From the IMG/VR virus record IMGVR_UViG_3300023082_000012, positions 1 through 54,294 of that record: a stretch of DNA of 54,294 nucleotides; one strand, written 5' to 3'. Numbering within the stretch: the stretch's first letter is position 1; each line of letters starts with the position of its first letter. Source of the DNA: a virus. The notes under the pieces are model-generated. The model saw nothing but the letters and a program-made list of their open reading frames with translations, was not told the origin of the DNA and did no database searches. A program made the translations under genes and the position numbers. Shown here one piece after another: positions 30,973-53,355 of this stretch.

Positions 30973-31004
30973 TTTGGTTAATCAGTTTTATCAAATTAAT
31001 TTTG
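30973..31004 (+). promoter_or_regulatory. Strong-consensus promoter, first of a tandem pair
   Basis: TTTG (30973-30976), 20 bases, TAATTTTG (30997-31004): both elements agree with the Bacteroidota consensus. The predicted start near 31008-31010 is at the base of a hairpin (31007-31038). No gene starts until 31122. Confidence 0.7.
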
Positions 31005-31006
31005 TG

Positions 31007-31038
31007 AAAGCGGCAATTCAGTAATGGGTTGTCGCTTT
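31007..31038 (+). other. Hairpin at the 5' end of the cargo transcript
   Basis: AAAGCGGCAA (31007-31016) pairs with TTGTCGCTTT (31029-31038), ten pairs including one G-U, with a 12-base loop. It sits directly after a promoter and lacks a long T-run. It may be an mRNA-stabilising 5' hairpin, part of a small RNA, or a weak terminator for the preceding gene. Confidence 0.5.
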
Positions 31039-31059
31039 GTTGTGTAAAATCCTATTATT

Positions 31060-31090
31060 TTTGTTGTTAAGTCTTTATAACCTAAATTTG
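31060..31090 (+). promoter_or_regulatory. Second tandem promoter before cargo genes
   Basis: TTTG (31060-31063), 19 bases, TAAATTTG (31083-31090). The ATG is at 31122, leaving a leader of about 27 bases. It probably drives the cargo operon together with the promoter at 30973. Confidence 0.65.
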
Positions 31091-48300: not shown

Positions 48301-51204
48301 CAGGATAGTCTGGCCCGGTTGAACCAGTTACAGATAACCCAATCGGAAATATTAAAATCTTACAGAAGCAACAAAGACGCTACCCAAATAAATGCCCAAG
48401 ACATGACCGAAACCATAAAGGCTGCCTTTAGGGATAACGAGTCGGAAATAAGGGATATAAAACGTTCTCTTAACATTGAGTATGAAACAGAGGAGAGTAC
48501 TGTTGAAATGGAGATGGGACTTAACAGGGCTTACGAAAATGACTTAATCATGAGTGGGAAAGAGGAACTCCAGTTTGCCATGGAAAACATGTCCAAAAGA
48601 AGTGTCAATGACGTAAACGAGTTTAACAGGTATTTAAGGCTTAGTGCCACCGACAGTATAGCGTACAATGAAAATTATGAGACAATCATAGAGGAAGCCT
48701 TCGATGGCGGATTAATCCGTGATACCGATAATATACAAGATAGGATAAAGGTACTCACAGTAAACTATGCCAAAAAACGTGTATCCGGTTACTATAAAAG
48801 ATGGGCACCACCACAGACAAACTTAATTCTGGCAGAAATGGAATTGGGTAATATTGACATGGAGTTTTACCATCTACTTGACACAGGGTTATCAGACGAG
48901 TCTTTACAGTCTTCCTTGAACAACCAAAAAATCCAAGACAGGATAACAAAGTACTATCGGAAGTCCAACCCTTCCATAACGGAATCACAGGCACAAACTA
49001 AATTCTTGGAAGACAGAAATAGGTTCCTCAATGAGTACCCATCTTTAAGATACATAAATATTCAACCAAGTTTTGCCTGGACAGATTTGGCGGAAAGTCG
49101 CGCCACCGGAAATAAAGGATTCAAAAAAGTACTTGGATTCAGGCAGCCGAATTGGAATTTTCAGGAGAACGGCCAATATATCTATAGAAACCAGAAATGG
49201 CTTGACGAATTTGGGCTTACTTCCGAAGATTGGGAAAATGCCGAAGATGTTACCCAGATGACACCAAGACAGAACCAAAACAAATTTGAGTTTTTGCAGG
49301 AATATTTTAAAGTAAAGAGACAGTCAGATAATCTCTATGGCGGAAATTACAACGGCTACAAGGCAATCCAACAAAGTTCGACCAGTTGGGAGAAGGCTAC
49401 CGGTACAAAAACCATAGCAGGAACTAAGTCCGCGATTCGTGATGCCGTGGGGGACGTCTTCTTTGAACGCCAGGATGAAAAACTTCATGGCGAGGTCTAT
49501 GAGGCAAAAGCGGATGGCATGGGAATCATGATACCCCCTATTTTCTTCAGGCAAAATCTTCCCGACCCAAATGCGATTACACAAAACACAATTACGGCCC
49601 TTCTGTTCGACTTCAACAAAGCAAACGAATACAAGGTAAGGGTAGAACTTGCGGGTACGGCACAGGCCATCCTAAGTAAGATAGGGGAACAAGACTTTTC
49701 GGACACCAGTATTTTAAGGGGTAACAAAAGAATTATCAAGCAGGGACAGACCTCAGAGACGTATAAGAAGGCCAAGGATTGGATAGAATACGCTTTTCTG
49801 GGTAAGAAACAGCACAGACGTATGGAGATGGACGTATTTGGACATACCGTCGATATGACCAGAGCTTTAGGAAAATTACGACAATTGTCTGTGTATCTGA
49901 ATCTTGCGGTCAACCCATTCGTCGCTGCGACAAGTGCAGCTTCGGGAGCCTACAACACTTTGTTAACGTCTTTGGTGGGAGATGCCTGGTCGGCTGACTC
50001 GGCCAAGGTAGCCTCGAAGATGTTGGGCGATATCCCTAAATATGTATTGCAGGACGGAAAACTTGACTCAAACTCGCGCCTTGGAATACTCATGGAAGCC
50101 TTTGGACTCCGTGGATTAGAAAAAAGGTATAACGAATCCTCCTCGACAAGGGCGGGGAGGCTTGCTTCGGAGTATGCATACAAGATGGATGAGGTGTCCA
50201 ACCTCTTGACTATTGCCCCTGCCTTATACGCAACCATAGCAGAACACAGGCTTATCCAACTTGAAAACGGCAAAAGCAGGCTTATGACATTCGAGGAATT
50301 CGAGGTCAACCAAAAAGTATCTGATATAAAAGACACCACGGCCATAAAAGCCTCCTGGACACAGAAACCCACTTTCTTTGAATTGATGGTAGTGGAAAAC
50401 AGGACAATAAATCCTTCACAGTTGTTCATAGATAACTTTGGCGTGGGAATGGATCAGACGGGTATAGATAATACATTTAGGGACAAGGTGAGCATGATAT
50501 CCGCAAAAGCCATACAGAACAACCAAAGACTTGATGGCACCATATCGGATAACGACAGGGTAACTTTGCAACGCGATGCCTTGGGAAACATGGTTTTGCA
50601 ACATAAGACGTGGTTAATCACTGGGTTAACAAAAATGCTTAAGGGGAAAGGGTATAATTTTAGCTCAGGAAGATGGGAGGAAGGATACATGAAAACGGGC
50701 CTAAGATTTATACAGGGCGTGATAATGAACAGGGGTAATGCCAAAGAGTTCTGGGAAACCTGGAAAAACAGTGAACCAAAAAGTATCCAAAAAAACCTGA
50801 AACGATTTGGGTTGGAAACTGCGGGGTACTTGGCAGCCTTAGTGCTCGTGCTTGCTTTGAAGGGTGCCGACGACGATGACGACCCGGTTTTGGAAGATGC
50901 AGGGAGATTGTTGTCCTACAGACTGTATGGAGAAATAAAATCTTCAAATCCGGTAGGACTTTACCACACGATGATGGAAAACTTGAATAATCCCGTAGTT
51001 TCCTTATCGGTCTTAGAAGACCAGGTAGCTCTTGGACAAGCAATACTAAGTGTGGGCAGCGACACATATAGAGAAGAGGTTTGGGAAAAATTCAGAAAAG
51101 GTACTCCGCTGAGAAGGATTAACCAAATATCGGATCTAGACGAGACAACCAAAAACTGGGTGTGGGGAAATAGAGAAAGTTTACCCGAACTATATAATAA
51201 ATAA
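45322..51204 (+). CDS. Giant ejection-type protein with membrane C-terminus (1960 residues)
   Basis: ATG 45322 (MACSIQRNSEGLITKV) is preferred to a GTG ten codons upstream because a start of the kind 'repeat of NxxG, V, APNG' is common in Bacteroidota phage giant proteins. Residues 322-326 read EEVSH in a helix (DVITEEVSHLAIAAYADQ): a metallopeptidase-like site whose first His is replaced by Glu. The middle ~1000 residues are helical and charged. Near residue 1530 is a hydrophobic stretch (LAVNPFVAATSAASGAYNTL). A transmembrane-like helix near 1840 (AGYLAALVLVLALKGADDDD) is followed by an acidic run. This fits a protein that enters the host with the DNA. The small genes and HNH nuclease separate it from the other cargo genes. 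Confidence 0.6.
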   Translation: MACSIQRNSEGLITKVTAPNGQPSLAFYKIHSTPYLGEADMSNQIYSNLYSPEIQQMFDGVSEGVNDGANTYMDSGEPRIYYKYGNVLPQETLEAGLISGEALGMVEMGIINPKNGEFIKLAHFQTNSSERAQGITDGIRSGLLSPERVLGQDGITRFQGKGAYVPDRRGTARLFQEDFQAQTGIAAKVNQDGTIEIASNPDFVTAEKSDGSTQVVHISEIEGLMDQKNITNKAQLLAVSSNFLTATLNSPNAVTTASEQNYARRLQSFLQSLGISVMSMEDYNKGSSTRHGYDPSVQGLVDLDNRVLAIAEGVDATDVITEEVSHLAIAAYADQNSIAAALSEVIDHPEYAQWAQIYRQKYSEQYSDPLELEDAVRKEILGKILARRIAQRGLNSDSMSTLWNRFVEYIRSIFKPSHRRMFDRLVEGLSADVLGGNFAEFGGDLGRGTFFSLKGERGIDDILAQTAEEINVLGRALKQGKARGLSVESVPGIMSGKQRLDRINEFTKKFETQLRILQQKVDKGQLSAIDHVRYLGIRDLISNRAPSFEEALKVMQEDTTLKRAAIELDKRVKNLYSVSNGMSPKMTIVFDELFNSLINKEVQDRGMTAEEEQMFRDAFNATMRDINVVASMLGMMSESSNPYLSLLAKQGIKLRTETTLRSSKVVNEFLDKATEKKWIDSKMQASILEKDEEGKFTGYLESAVNMNLYDKREKKRATEIIARIQEKEVSEVEKLLEKSSAKELLKTADESAMFDDMMDKEFYRNERGNYNTEEDRNKKEDKYTEAGVSPQTIAHIANERRAINEINAAYREDNMPVDLSVMSEEDRIILEDENTRLQNKRAPIDQNGMIRDGLKVAKYANLSQKQKEAMPLYGTEDFNKILEGYNGNFIVVDDISSKEDLDDETRYVLDQFNLNLLSRREYLNAGTKSASDIFFETLNSKTTPQEKFRFSIDNGRIGFSDTFYSTAILGTTYYETAQKQVDGMPEGPKKKSMQDSLARLNQLQITQSEILKSYRSNKDATQINAQDMTETIKAAFRDNESEIRDIKRSLNIEYETEESTVEMEMGLNRAYENDLIMSGKEELQFAMENMSKRSVNDVNEFNRYLRLSATDSIAYNENYETIIEEAFDGGLIRDTDNIQDRIKVLTVNYAKKRVSGYYKRWAPPQTNLILAEMELGNIDMEFYHLLDTGLSDESLQSSLNNQKIQDRITKYYRKSNPSITESQAQTKFLEDRNRFLNEYPSLRYINIQPSFAWTDLAESRATGNKGFKKVLGFRQPNWNFQENGQYIYRNQKWLDEFGLTSEDWENAEDVTQMTPRQNQNKFEFLQEYFKVKRQSDNLYGGNYNGYKAIQQSSTSWEKATGTKTIAGTKSAIRDAVGDVFFERQDEKLHGEVYEAKADGMGIMIPPIFFRQNLPDPNAITQNTITALLFDFNKANEYKVRVELAGTAQAILSKIGEQDFSDTSILRGNKRIIKQGQTSETYKKAKDWIEYAFLGKKQHRRMEMDVFGHTVDMTRALGKLRQLSVYLNLAVNPFVAATSAASGAYNTLLTSLVGDAWSADSAKVASKMLGDIPKYVLQDGKLDSNSRLGILMEAFGLRGLEKRYNESSSTRAGRLASEYAYKMDEVSNLLTIAPALYATIAEHRLIQLENGKSRLMTFEEFEVNQKVSDIKDTTAIKASWTQKPTFFELMVVENRTINPSQLFIDNFGVGMDQTGIDNTFRDKVSMISAKAIQNNQRLDGTISDNDRVTLQRDALGNMVLQHKTWLITGLTKMLKGKGYNFSSGRWEEGYMKTGLRFIQGVIMNRGNAKEFWETWKNSEPKSIQKNLKRFGLETAGYLAALVLVLALKGADDDDDPVLEDAGRLLSYRLYGEIKSSNPVGLYHTMMENLNNPVVSLSVLEDQVALGQAILSVGSDTYREEVWEKFRKGTPLRRINQISDLDETTKNWVWGNRESLPELYNK

Positions 51205-51205
51205 C

Positions 51206-51241
51206 AAAAAGCCAGAAAGATTAATTTCCTTCTGGCTTTTC
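51206..51241. terminator. Bidirectional terminator shared by convergent genes
   Basis: AAAAGCCAGAA (51207-51217) pairs with TTCTGGCTTTT (51230-51240), 12-base loop, with T-rich sequence on either side in both directions. It starts just after the giant gene stop. The stop codon of the leftward GIY-YIG gene (51221-51223) lies in the loop, so the right arm is also coding. Confidence 0.85.
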
Positions 51242-52258
51242 TTCTTTGTAGAGTTTCCAACCTTTGTAATAAGTTGCAGCACCTCGTCTCAGCCGACAAT
51301 ACCCTATAATATTTAAACCATGTTCTTTTAAAAATTGTTTAACCTCATACACTTTATGTATAACCCCAGTAGGATCAATTAATGTACAATCTAACGGAAT
51401 TATCTTTTCTTTTAAGGGGTACAGTCTCCAACCATAGGAGGATTCAAGTTGCCCTATTGAAACTCTCTGTATACCACTCCTATCAATATTATGTGTTCTT
51501 GCAAATTCACAGATATTAGATATTTTTTCAAAAATTTCACCGGTGGGGCTTATAAAAGAATAGGAGGGAAAATTAAAAGGTTTTAATTCTTGTCCTGAGT
51601 CTAAGGTCCACCCTTTATGATGAGACGTTTTGCCTACCAAAACTTTCTCCATACGTGACTTATCTAATTGATTGTCACGACAATATTTACTCAAATTAAA
51701 TATCTTTACTTTTTCTCCAAGGGGGTTCACCAAATAGTAAGTTTTAGCTTTCTTTAAAGCAATCTTTTCACCCATCTCTTTCGGACGTTTCCTTCCAGTG
51801 TGAGCCTCAGAAATTCTTCTACGGGTTTCCTCAGTGGGGGTATAACCTTTATTACTTTTTCTTTTACCAGTTGTATAAGCCCTTTTTAAACTCTCACTTA
51901 ATTTTTGCCTAGTTTCATCAGAACATTCTGGTGTTAGTTCATCTGAAGGTGTTAAGACACAATTTAGACCCTTCTCCCTGTTTAAGACATCATACTTGTC
52001 TTGGTAAAACCTTTCCCAAACATTAAGTTCTTCCATAGGACACCCTTTTTCAACTTTAAAAATATGATTATCAACACCATATTTTTGAAAAGAGTTAAAA
52101 AGTTTAGGTTGTCTTTTTGATGCGGAAGAACGGTGATATCTCCATCTATTATAGATATTTACCGCTTTTCCAATGTAGATTCGCCCGTTTGGCGCGAGAA
52201 TTGAATAAATTCCTGAAAACTTTAATTTGTGATAATCTTTAAACTGCTCTGATCCCAT
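51221..52258 (-). CDS. GIY-YIG homing-type endonuclease with NUMOD repeats
   Basis: 345 residues. GIY at 16-18 and YIG at 28-30, then R38 and H42, with the likely catalytic Glu at E82 (WERFYQDKY). Residues about 113-157 (SDETRQKLSESLKRAYTTGK; ISEAHTGRK) match NUMOD3-type DNA-binding helices. Three NUMOD1-like repeats follow at about 172-217, 230-278 and 290-338, each ending in KGW-L or YGWRLY. This is the standard make-up of free-standing phage homing nucleases. It lies alone between late and early genes, behind a hairpin leader with its own promoter. Target site not identifiable here. Confidence 0.9.
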   Translation of the reverse strand: MGSEQFKDYHKLKFSGIYSILAPNGRIYIGKAVNIYNRWRYHRSSASKRQPKLFNSFQKYGVDNHIFKVEKGCPMEELNVWERFYQDKYDVLNREKGLNCVLTPSDELTPECSDETRQKLSESLKRAYTTGKRKSNKGYTPTEETRRRISEAHTGRKRPKEMGEKIALKKAKTYYLVNPLGEKVKIFNLSKYCRDNQLDKSRMEKVLVGKTSHHKGWTLDSGQELKPFNFPSYSFISPTGEIFEKISNICEFARTHNIDRSGIQRVSIGQLESSYGWRLYPLKEKIIPLDCTLIDPTGVIHKVYEVKQFLKEHGLNIIGYCRLRRGAATYYKGWKLYKEEKPEGN

Positions 52259-52265
52259 AACTTCA

Positions 52266-52318
52266 ACAAAAAACCCACAGCGTTCAAAGGGTTACGGCCT
52301 CCTACTAACTGTGGGTTT
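52266..52318 (-). terminator. Terminator-like hairpin just before the GIY-YIG start
   Basis: On the minus strand AAACCCACAG (52318-52309) pairs with CTGTGGGTTT (52280-52271) over a 28-base loop, followed by a T-run. It ends 8-12 bases before the GIY-YIG ATG. The loop contains a sequence complementary to an element nearer the promoter (see findings). Could end a short RNA or attenuate the gene. Confidence 0.7.
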
Positions 52319-52369
52319 ATAATAAATATTTTCGTTTAAATTCGATGTAACCGTAACTTTACAACGGCA

Positions 52370-52401
52370 CAAATATAAAAAGTCTTTTTAAGATTACCAA
52401 A
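52370..52401 (-). promoter_or_regulatory. Consensus promoter on the minus strand
   Basis: On the minus strand TTTG (52401-52398), 20 bases, TATATTTG (52377-52370). Both elements match the Bacteroidota consensus. Predicted start near 52365. It drives the GIY-YIG leader and, beyond the hairpin, the gene. Confidence 0.7.
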
Positions 52402-52415
52402 TTTATGACACAATC

Positions 52416-52634
52416 TTAACATACCTCACTCAAATATAATTCATACAACTGCATACAGAGTTCCCAATTCTTTATTTGACTTCTGTAAGCCTGCAAAGAT
52501 ACACTAAAATTTGTATGGGGACAGTATAGTGTGACACCATAATTTACTATGCCACAACTCTGTCCTCCCGGTTCACGTTTTGGATAGGGTTCTATTTTTA
52601 TTTGGTTCCTATACCATTCAAAATCGGTTACCAT
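52416..52634 (-). CDS. Unknown small protein (72 residues)
   Basis: Last gene of the leftward operon. Starts MVTDFEWYRNQIKIEPYPKR, with two Cys in the middle (GGQSCGIVNYGVTLYCPHTN) and a helical end (NWELCMQLYELYLSEVC). Overlaps the gene upstream by 7 bases. No family recognised. The tight packing supports it. Confidence 0.5.
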   Translation of the reverse strand: MVTDFEWYRNQIKIEPYPKREPGGQSCGIVNYGVTLYCPHTNFSVSLQAYRSQIKNWELCMQLYELYLSEVC

Positions 52635-52957
52635 AAATCTTCACTGAATAGGTAAGATTTTAATTCATCTGTCTGACCTGCCGCAAAAGCTATCTTTCCA
52701 CCTTCTTTGCGATCAACGAAACGATTTTTGTTGGTGAGAAAACCTTGTTCAACTTCACCCATCTTGTAGCTCGGTAGCCCTGTCATCGCTACGGCTTGAT
52801 AGATGCAGTTTGCATGCCGCCATCCGCAGAAGACGATTCCACGGTCAACGTTGTAAGGAGAGATGCCTCGCATCCGTAAAGGCTCTTCTTTGCCAAAGTC
52901 TATTTTGTCATACCAAACGGCACTGCACAGTATGTACTCCTGGTTTTTATCTTTCAT
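52628..52957 (-). CDS. Conserved phage protein of unknown function (109 residues)
   Basis: Contains YILCSAVWYDK, a Cys/His region (VFCGWRHANCIYQAVAMTG) and near the end FLTNKNRFVDRKEGGKIA followed by AAGQTDEL. I know this pattern from small proteins in many phages, where the function is unknown. Its ATG overlaps the stop TGA of the preceding gene (ATGA). Probably an early gene of the leftward operon. Confidence 0.65.
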   Translation of the reverse strand: MKDKNQEYILCSAVWYDKIDFGKEEPLRMRGISPYNVDRGIVFCGWRHANCIYQAVAMTGLPSYKMGEVEQGFLTNKNRFVDRKEGGKIAFAAGQTDELKSYLFSEDLW

Positions 52958-53355
52958 AATTTAATTAATTTTAAGCCCTCCGCAAGTGCAATTTCCAAGG
53001 CTTCCTCGTAGGTATCGTTATCCATGTATACCTCATAGTTTTCAGGAACTTCCCTGTTGGTTCTGTAGATAGTGTAACTGTATTTAAGGATTTCAGAGTC
53101 TTCACTTAATACGGGTAACACGAAGATTTCAATGTTATGATAATCTCTCAACCACTTAGCCAAAAGACTTTGTGTTGTCCTAAGATATCTGTCCAGAATC
53201 ACACAATCTTCTTGTTGAAATTCAGTTTCTTCATAGTCTACTTCGTTTTCAGAATAAAAAGCTGGTACATATTCAGTGCCGTACTCAAAGTAGTCACAAA
53301 GACCTTTTTCTTTTGCTAGTTTGGCCGTTTCAAATTCTATTCTTTTATCTTCCAT
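52954..53355 (-). CDS. Conserved Bacteroidota-phage-type small protein (133 residues)
   Basis: Starts MEDKRIEFETAKLAKEKGLC; the middle is TQSLLAKWLRDYHNIEIFVL and the end EEALEIALAEGLKLIKL. This combination is familiar from Bacteroidota phages and host prophages as an unassigned small protein. Acidic. The stop is TGA and shares bases with the start of the next gene. Overlaps the upstream gene by 11 bases. Function unknown. Confidence 0.65.
   Translation of the reverse strand: MEDKRIEFETAKLAKEKGLCDYFEYGTEYVPAFYSENEVDYEETEFQQEDCVILDRYLRTTQSLLAKWLRDYHNIEIFVLPVLSEDSEILKYSYTIYRTNREVPENYEVYMDNDTYEEALEIALAEGLKLIKL

Follow-up and report, generated by a model that had tools for sequence, protein, structure and literature searches.

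Plasmid control RNAs provide known examples of kissing loops, as in ColE1 RNA I/RNA II and pT181-type attenuation, where 7-nt loops are fully paired and the sequences diverge between plasmid types while complementarity is kept. In those systems it is two RNAs transcribed from opposite strands that pair, whereas in the leaders described below both loops lie on one RNA. Type III toxin-antitoxin loci, in which a ToxI RNA is followed by a terminator and the ToxN gene, display the same order of promoter, structured RNA, terminator and nuclease gene as the kissing-loop leaders. However, ToxI comprises tandem RNA repeats, which the leaders lack, and the nucleases that follow the leaders are homing DNA endonucleases of unrelated families. 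No tandem RNA copies were reported in the relevant region of the window (the whole stretch of DNA analysed, a virus record of 54,294 bases), and the downstream gene codes for a GIY-YIG enzyme rather than a ToxN-like RNase. The RT-14 RNA (RF02921), which reportedly originates from a 2017 catalogue of candidate structured RNAs, shows a weak and local likeness (a 5' hairpin, an A-rich linker and a terminal hairpin with UAGUA/GAA) that was not reported at other kissing-loop elements; membership of that family was rejected on a score of 24.9 bits against a gathering score of 48.1, with no record above the cut-off.

In homing genes of the T4 family, RNA structure located just upstream of or inside the gene holds expression down by means of hairpins and terminators (PMC2988022): leader hairpins are deployed by T4 I-TevI, segB and mobE, and in Aeromonas phage 25 a hairpin immediately precedes the ribosome-binding site of seg43 (PMC2988022). 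Since hairpins and terminators serve T4-family homing genes in this way, leader control of such genes is of a known kind. By way of contrast, the T4-family leaders are single hairpins that mostly hide the ribosome site, whereas each kissing-loop leader combines two hairpins having matched loops with a dedicated promoter and a terminator, and precedes nucleases of unrelated families. No match at the Rfam 15 gathering threshold was recorded in the window or at the elements of other loci, and neither Rfam 15 nor the open-access papers searched yielded a two-hairpin, self-kissing, code-changing architecture common to unrelated nucleases. As judged from sequence, the proposal that the kissing-loop leader RNA represents a class not in Rfam, and apparently undescribed, is well supported; the literature search covered open-access papers only, and an earlier description of the architecture may exist.

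The proposed window RNA and its genomic setting

The capsid protein encoded in the window shares about 30% identity with its counterparts in Cellulophaga phages phi17:2/phi4:1 and gut phage csAssE-Sib, and the DNA that these capsid relatives have in common with the window RNA region consists of promoter-like pieces only. A relative of the 1970-aa virion protein, located in another record (G003, 97326-100760), contains one in-frame TAG that is read through, possibly a sign that the stop codon is recoded or that the sequence has an error. On the minus strand of the window, a gap of 157 nt separates an upstream ORF (52416-52634) from the nuclease gene, and contains a promoter of the Bacteroidota type followed by two hairpins, SL1 at the 5' end and the terminator hairpin SL2, with an A/U linker between them, and then six T; the element as a whole extends from 52401 to 52268 and stops 9 nt short of the GIY-YIG ATG. 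The relevant features are as follows.

52398..52401, minus strand: -33 element TTTG of a Bacteroidota-type promoter, from sequence; the extended TTTGGTAATCT motif recurs in related phages
52370..52377, minus strand: -7 element TATATTTG, 20 nt from the -33 element; the same box precedes most related elements
52346..52363, minus strand: SL1, 5' hairpin UGUAA[AGUUACGG]UUACA, from the minimum-energy fold and aligned by model R2
52351..52357, minus strand: loop element A, GUUACGG, complementary to B and identical in L187
52319..52345, minus strand: A/U-rich linker, from sequence; GAAAAUAUU..AUUA aligns to model R2
52271..52318, minus strand: SL2 terminator hairpin, with outer stem AAACCCACAG/CUGUGGGUUU, internal loop, inner stem and apical loop; the only match to model R1 in the window
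52303-52306 and 52283-52285, minus strand: AGUA and GAA of the SL2 internal loop
52291..52297, minus strand: apical loop element B, CCGUAAC
52268..52273, minus strand: U-tract of six T, overlapping and then extending past the SL2 3' arm
51221..52258, minus strand: GIY-YIG/NUMOD3 homing endonuclease gene, 345 aa, with its ATG 9 nt past the U-tract
51206..51241, no strand assigned: bidirectional terminator that closes the nuclease unit where the two strands converge

A prior sequence-only reading of this DNA had proposed a full-consensus minus-strand promoter, and TTTG (52401-52398), a 20-nt spacer and TATATTTG (52377-52370) are indeed present. As the strict promoter pattern is found four times in the window where 1.6 would be expected, the bare pattern counts for little; however, further copies of the extended element (TTTGGTAATCT...) are present between genes in related phages and in an Elizabethkingia phage. 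Elsewhere in the window, a tandem pair of promoter-pattern matches (TTTG...TAnnTTTG) with a 10-pair hairpin between them precedes a 965-aa ORF on the plus strand (30973-31090). The ten-pair stem and T-run that had been noted before the nuclease ATG proved equally sound, AAACCCACAG/CTGTGGGTTT forming 10 Watson-Crick pairs (11 with a G-U) and being followed by six T (52318-52268). One of approximately five strong terminator-like sites in 54 kb, SL2 has the G+C-containing stem and succeeding T-run of an intrinsic terminator; in place of the customary short loop (3-8 nt), its outer stem encloses an interior of 26-28 nt that holds an inner hairpin, and it is absent from the listing of a standard terminator scan. 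Weak points of the element are the two G-U pairs in the inner stem of SL2 and an SL1 stem worth -0.8 kcal/mol on its own, while the stability of the whole-leader fold is unexceptional (z -1.72).

The complementarity claimed between leader and hairpin loop, save for two extra bases, was confirmed as GTTACGG (52357-52351) with CCGTAAC (52297-52291), giving seven contiguous pairs, a CC bulge and three more. The minimum-energy fold has AGUUACGG as the SL1 loop and exactly CCGUAAC as the SL2 apical loop, so that a 7-bp kissing pair, GUUACGG/CCGUAAC, joins the two. Because leader-to-loop runs of at least 7 occurred in 4.5% of shuffles, the window considered alone is suggestive rather than decisive and its pairing could be due to chance, although a 7-nt loop-loop match arose in only 2 of 3000 dinucleotide shuffles. 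The A-B pairing is confined to the SL2 apical loop and shares no bases with the terminator stem; since A and B can therefore pair with that stem intact, the classical antiterminator switch previously suggested is unlikely, and RNAalifold applied to the four-sequence alignments revealed no covarying alternative pairing of a riboswitch-like kind that would break the stem.

The further suggestion that the RNA sits exactly at a strand switch between early and late genes was not borne out. The plus-strand genes stop at 51204 and the switch lies at 51205-51220, beyond the nuclease gene; that gene is the last on the minus strand, and the junction is convergent. The ORF immediately upstream of the leader (52416-52634, minus strand) codes for a 72-aa product that contains a GGQ motif and matches the RF-1 (release factor) domain below threshold, and could specify a stand-alone peptidyl-hydrolase-like domain; a 33% identical relative is present in Cellulophaga phage phi14:2. 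Within the same minus-strand cluster, a phrog_12005-type protein (52954-53355) has a relative that is located, in another phage (L333 / L030), directly upstream of a kissing-loop element and a DUF723 nuclease, a hint of a shared insertion neighbourhood.

Relatives, loop matches and covariation

Exact searches of viral contigs with two 17-mers from the window RNA yielded no real relative, the matches being alike in the 17-mer only and mostly falling within one recurrent, coding-looking phage sequence. Comparison of the leader with phages by blastn returned nothing beyond promoter pieces and, in Pseudomonas phages, a match of 21 nt attributed to chance, and the route via synteny of the neighbouring gene 52628-52957 was abandoned, its family being widespread and non-syntenic. 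As the conserved feature is a loop-loop match and not the letters themselves, sequence searches and tools based on nested structure can miss such leaders.

Relatives were recognised by architecture. Three loci preceding GIY-YIG genes in records of Bacteroidota-type phages (L160, L161 and L162) each contained, in order, a 5' element, a hairpin with a complementary apical loop, a T-run and the ATG, their loop pairs (GGTCTGAA/TTCAGACC, CTACCACA/TGTGGTAG and CCGCCAAG/CTTGGCGG respectively) being unrelated in letters. A search of viral contigs by nuclease alignment then gave 80 loci, and the leader was present in many of those having an upstream gap. Across many phages, promoter, SL1, SL2, U-tract and ATG are constant in order and spacing: no more than a few nt separate the -7 box from the start of SL1, the nuclease ATG is usually 9-22 nt past SL2, and the SL2 internal loop is often either AGUA/GAA, which resembles the loop-E (bulged-G) motif, or UGAU/UGAU. 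A hand-made compilation contains 31 elements and 26 different codes, and nuclease-type genes of several unrelated families follow 27 of the elements; since selection was partly on loop complementarity, this list illustrates the architecture but does not prove it, and L023, L029 and L310 are weaker than the others. The case rests instead on the loop-blind comparison, the covariation and the model R1 matches set out below. Exceptions to the nuclease association include L207 (before an HTH_36/Phg_2220_C gene), L217 (before a DUF6291 gene) and L310 (before an ORF of unknown kind), and some members have poor U-tracts (L162, L218). Record L217 also contains two matches to the DUF805b RNA (RF02914), at 161-193 and 2126-2158, one above and one just below the gathering score, the second being immediately behind a GIY-YIG ORF.

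Many homing genes of the same family are without the element, which is consequently not required for such genes, and the leaders of 29 GIY-YIG-like genes from bacterial genomes contained it in no case. Among individual candidates, the crAss001 GIY-YIG gene follows its neighbour so directly that there is no space for a leader, Flavobacterium phage FL-1 has a terminator but unmatched loops, and two doubtful kin-scan matches (L297, L300) were excluded from the count.

Circularity was avoided by testing 19 distinct leaders chosen on promoter, outer stem and T-run alone, with the loops ignored. Loops of the same leader matched over at least 7 nt in 15 of the 19, whereas swapped pairs did so in 6.1% of cases (p = 2e-15). 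For this count L224 was scored on a pair other than the one read by eye, and L209 (5 nt plus a bulge) was left out; the loop pairs of L196, L220, L224 and L172 were read by hand. A full-architecture scanner that demands both a promoter and a downstream ORF, run on 1.3 Mb of loci of which some overlap or are near-identical, gave 28 matches with an ORF compared with 0, 0 and 1 in shuffled sequence; matches without an ORF behind them were shuffle-like and were discarded. The same scan of 749 kb of related phage genomes located further elements, mostly before nucleases.

The check for covariation in relatives that had been proposed with the sequence-only reading was carried out, and covariation was found in two alignments, none of 500 shuffles being as good. 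Each alignment contains four sequences and the counts are small, the strength of the result residing in the total lack of one-sided changes in the kissing helix. In the first alignment (A6: L177, L194, L203 and L187), 98.2% of cells were paired, 13 pairs showed double changes, no pair had changed on one side only, and none of the 500 shuffles equalled it. A covariance model (R1) built from A6 only, with the window left out, made its sole match in the 54 kb of the window at the element under study (34.2 bits, E 3.6e-4), placing SL2 correctly and SL1 loosely. Model R2 aligned SL1 and the linker as described above, with the window element its top match at E 0.017 and other terminators at E 0.06-0.4. 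The window element thus combines a loop match of at least 7 nt and the promoter, U-tract and ORF order of the proposed class with recovery by a window-free model, and the claim of a new regulatory RNA in phages, with genuine pairing between loop and leader, withstood the covariation test, the pairing being a loop-loop kiss.

In 519 kb of sequence, R1 matched only L030 and L209 beyond its own seeds, and a further 811 kb from other phages and from bacteria gave no match. Its application to other viral records retrieved four elements, all directly before nuclease-type ORFs, in which an almost unchanged SL2 scaffold (AAGCTTATGGCAAGTAGAG...CTCGAAAGCCTAAGCTT) carries four different loop pairs.

L328: GTCAGAG/CTCTGAC, HNH-type nuclease gene
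L329: GTCGAGA/TCTCGAC, GIY-YIG-type nuclease gene
L331: GTGGACG/CGTCCAC, HNH-type nuclease gene
L333: GTCGGAC/GTCCGAC, DUF723 nuclease gene

The HNH and GIY-YIG labels (L281, L328, L329, L331) were assigned by eye from motifs in the translations (HHIVP, GIVYKWTNK...WYIGSH), Pfam identifying NUMOD domains in those proteins, partly below cut-off, and nothing in that of L329. In the alignment of the four, the kissing helix is 100% paired with five of its seven pairs changed on both sides, the loops vary more than the SL2 scaffold (p = 3e-4), and RNAalifold used without a given structure predicted both hairpins and left the two covarying loops open.

Possible roles of the leader and its loop codes

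Possession of its own promoter and a U-tract, with a nuclease ATG 9-20 nt downstream, fits a free small RNA and a nuclease-controlling leader alike. The reading that we favour, with some reserve, is a promoter-driven attenuator leader that would yield an RNA of about 100 nt and permit little transcription into the nuclease gene, the loop code setting either the fold or self-recognition. Transcription would start a few nt past the -7 box; SL1 would fold first and SL2 next, its apical loop kissing that of SL1 (7-9 bp) and so helping the terminator, whose interior is unusually large, to form in time. In the U-tract the polymerase would then mostly halt and release the ~100-nt RNA, so that the nuclease ORF, some 10-20 nt further on, would be carried by read-through transcripts only, and the leader would also insulate the nuclease from read-through of the upstream minus-strand genes. 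The sequences themselves display the architecture, its covariation, its link to nucleases and the self-specific loop codes; transcription, the efficiency of termination, kissing in vivo, action in cis or in trans and the holding down of the nuclease as the purpose of the arrangement are what we infer. The leaders would form a class of structured RNA that accompanies mobile homing genes from nuclease families unrelated to one another and whose paired loops change fast while staying strictly matched. They make testable how Bacteroidota phages keep free-standing homing endonucleases quiet, and offer a natural source of orthogonal kissing-loop pairs.

The loop letters would be free to drift while mutually matched, and where several elements occupy one record their codes cross-match by at most 4 nt, compared with 6-8 nt for own pairs. 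As each copy in a genome has its own loop pair, the leaders present in one infected cell would not be expected to cross-pair. We tentatively suggest that the loops may constitute a self/non-self code by which a leader RNA recognises own-code leaders only, in cis or in trans, and so sets the expression of its nuclease; unrelated homing endonucleases, whether they belong to one phage or to phages that infect a cell together, might then be regulated independently on the same scaffold.

The strongest rival, and the more novel case, has the RNA act in trans by self-recognition: once terminated, the ~100-nt RNA would kiss nascent leaders of its own code, or dimerise or oligomerise head to tail, giving a homotypic autorepression like that of plasmid copy-control RNAs, and codes would diversify so that co-resident or co-infecting copies avoid mutual silencing. 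The highly variable loops on a kept SL2 scaffold and the low cross-matching within records are both in keeping with such a role, as is a linker in L184 that looks short for an intramolecular kiss. Self-complementarity is nevertheless explained more simply by intramolecular pairing, and we consider action in trans rather unlikely; linker length and SL2 length show a weak trend (rho 0.39, p = 0.10) that decides nothing.

Somewhat less likely still is a stand-alone small RNA with its own job, such as binding a host RNA or protein, the nuclease merely lying behind its terminator or the RNA being a homing passenger. A promoter and terminator of its own, and the few elements before non-nuclease genes, would suit such an RNA, but the placing of 27 of 31 elements 9-22 nt from the ATG of nucleases of several unrelated families would be needless for it, and freely changing loop letters argue against a fixed external target. 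Translational control in the style of the T4 homing genes, with SL2 mainly blocking ribosome access to the nuclease start, has the precedents already described and a start codon only a few nt past SL2. It is improbable nonetheless: in the window, SL2 ends 12 nt before the ATG and those bases are unpaired in the SL2 fold, the start codon and the bases immediately preceding it thus lying outside the hairpin, and in many members SL2 is followed by a long U-tract. That an ordinary terminator of the upstream minus-strand genes coincides with a chance promoter and an accidental loop match is scarcely credible, for although the window-only 7-nt leader-loop match has a p of ~0.045 and bare promoter patterns do arise by chance, the matched-loop architecture in many phages, the compensated changes and the match of a window-free model to the window contradict it.

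Certain loop codes recur despite different outer stems and, in some cases, different downstream genes (L186/L217/L331; window/L187; L162/L225; L160/L218), indicating either that apical parts have been swapped between leaders or that the set of allowed codes is limited. The GTGGACG code (L186, L217, L331) precedes nucleases of two kinds as well as a DUF6291 gene.
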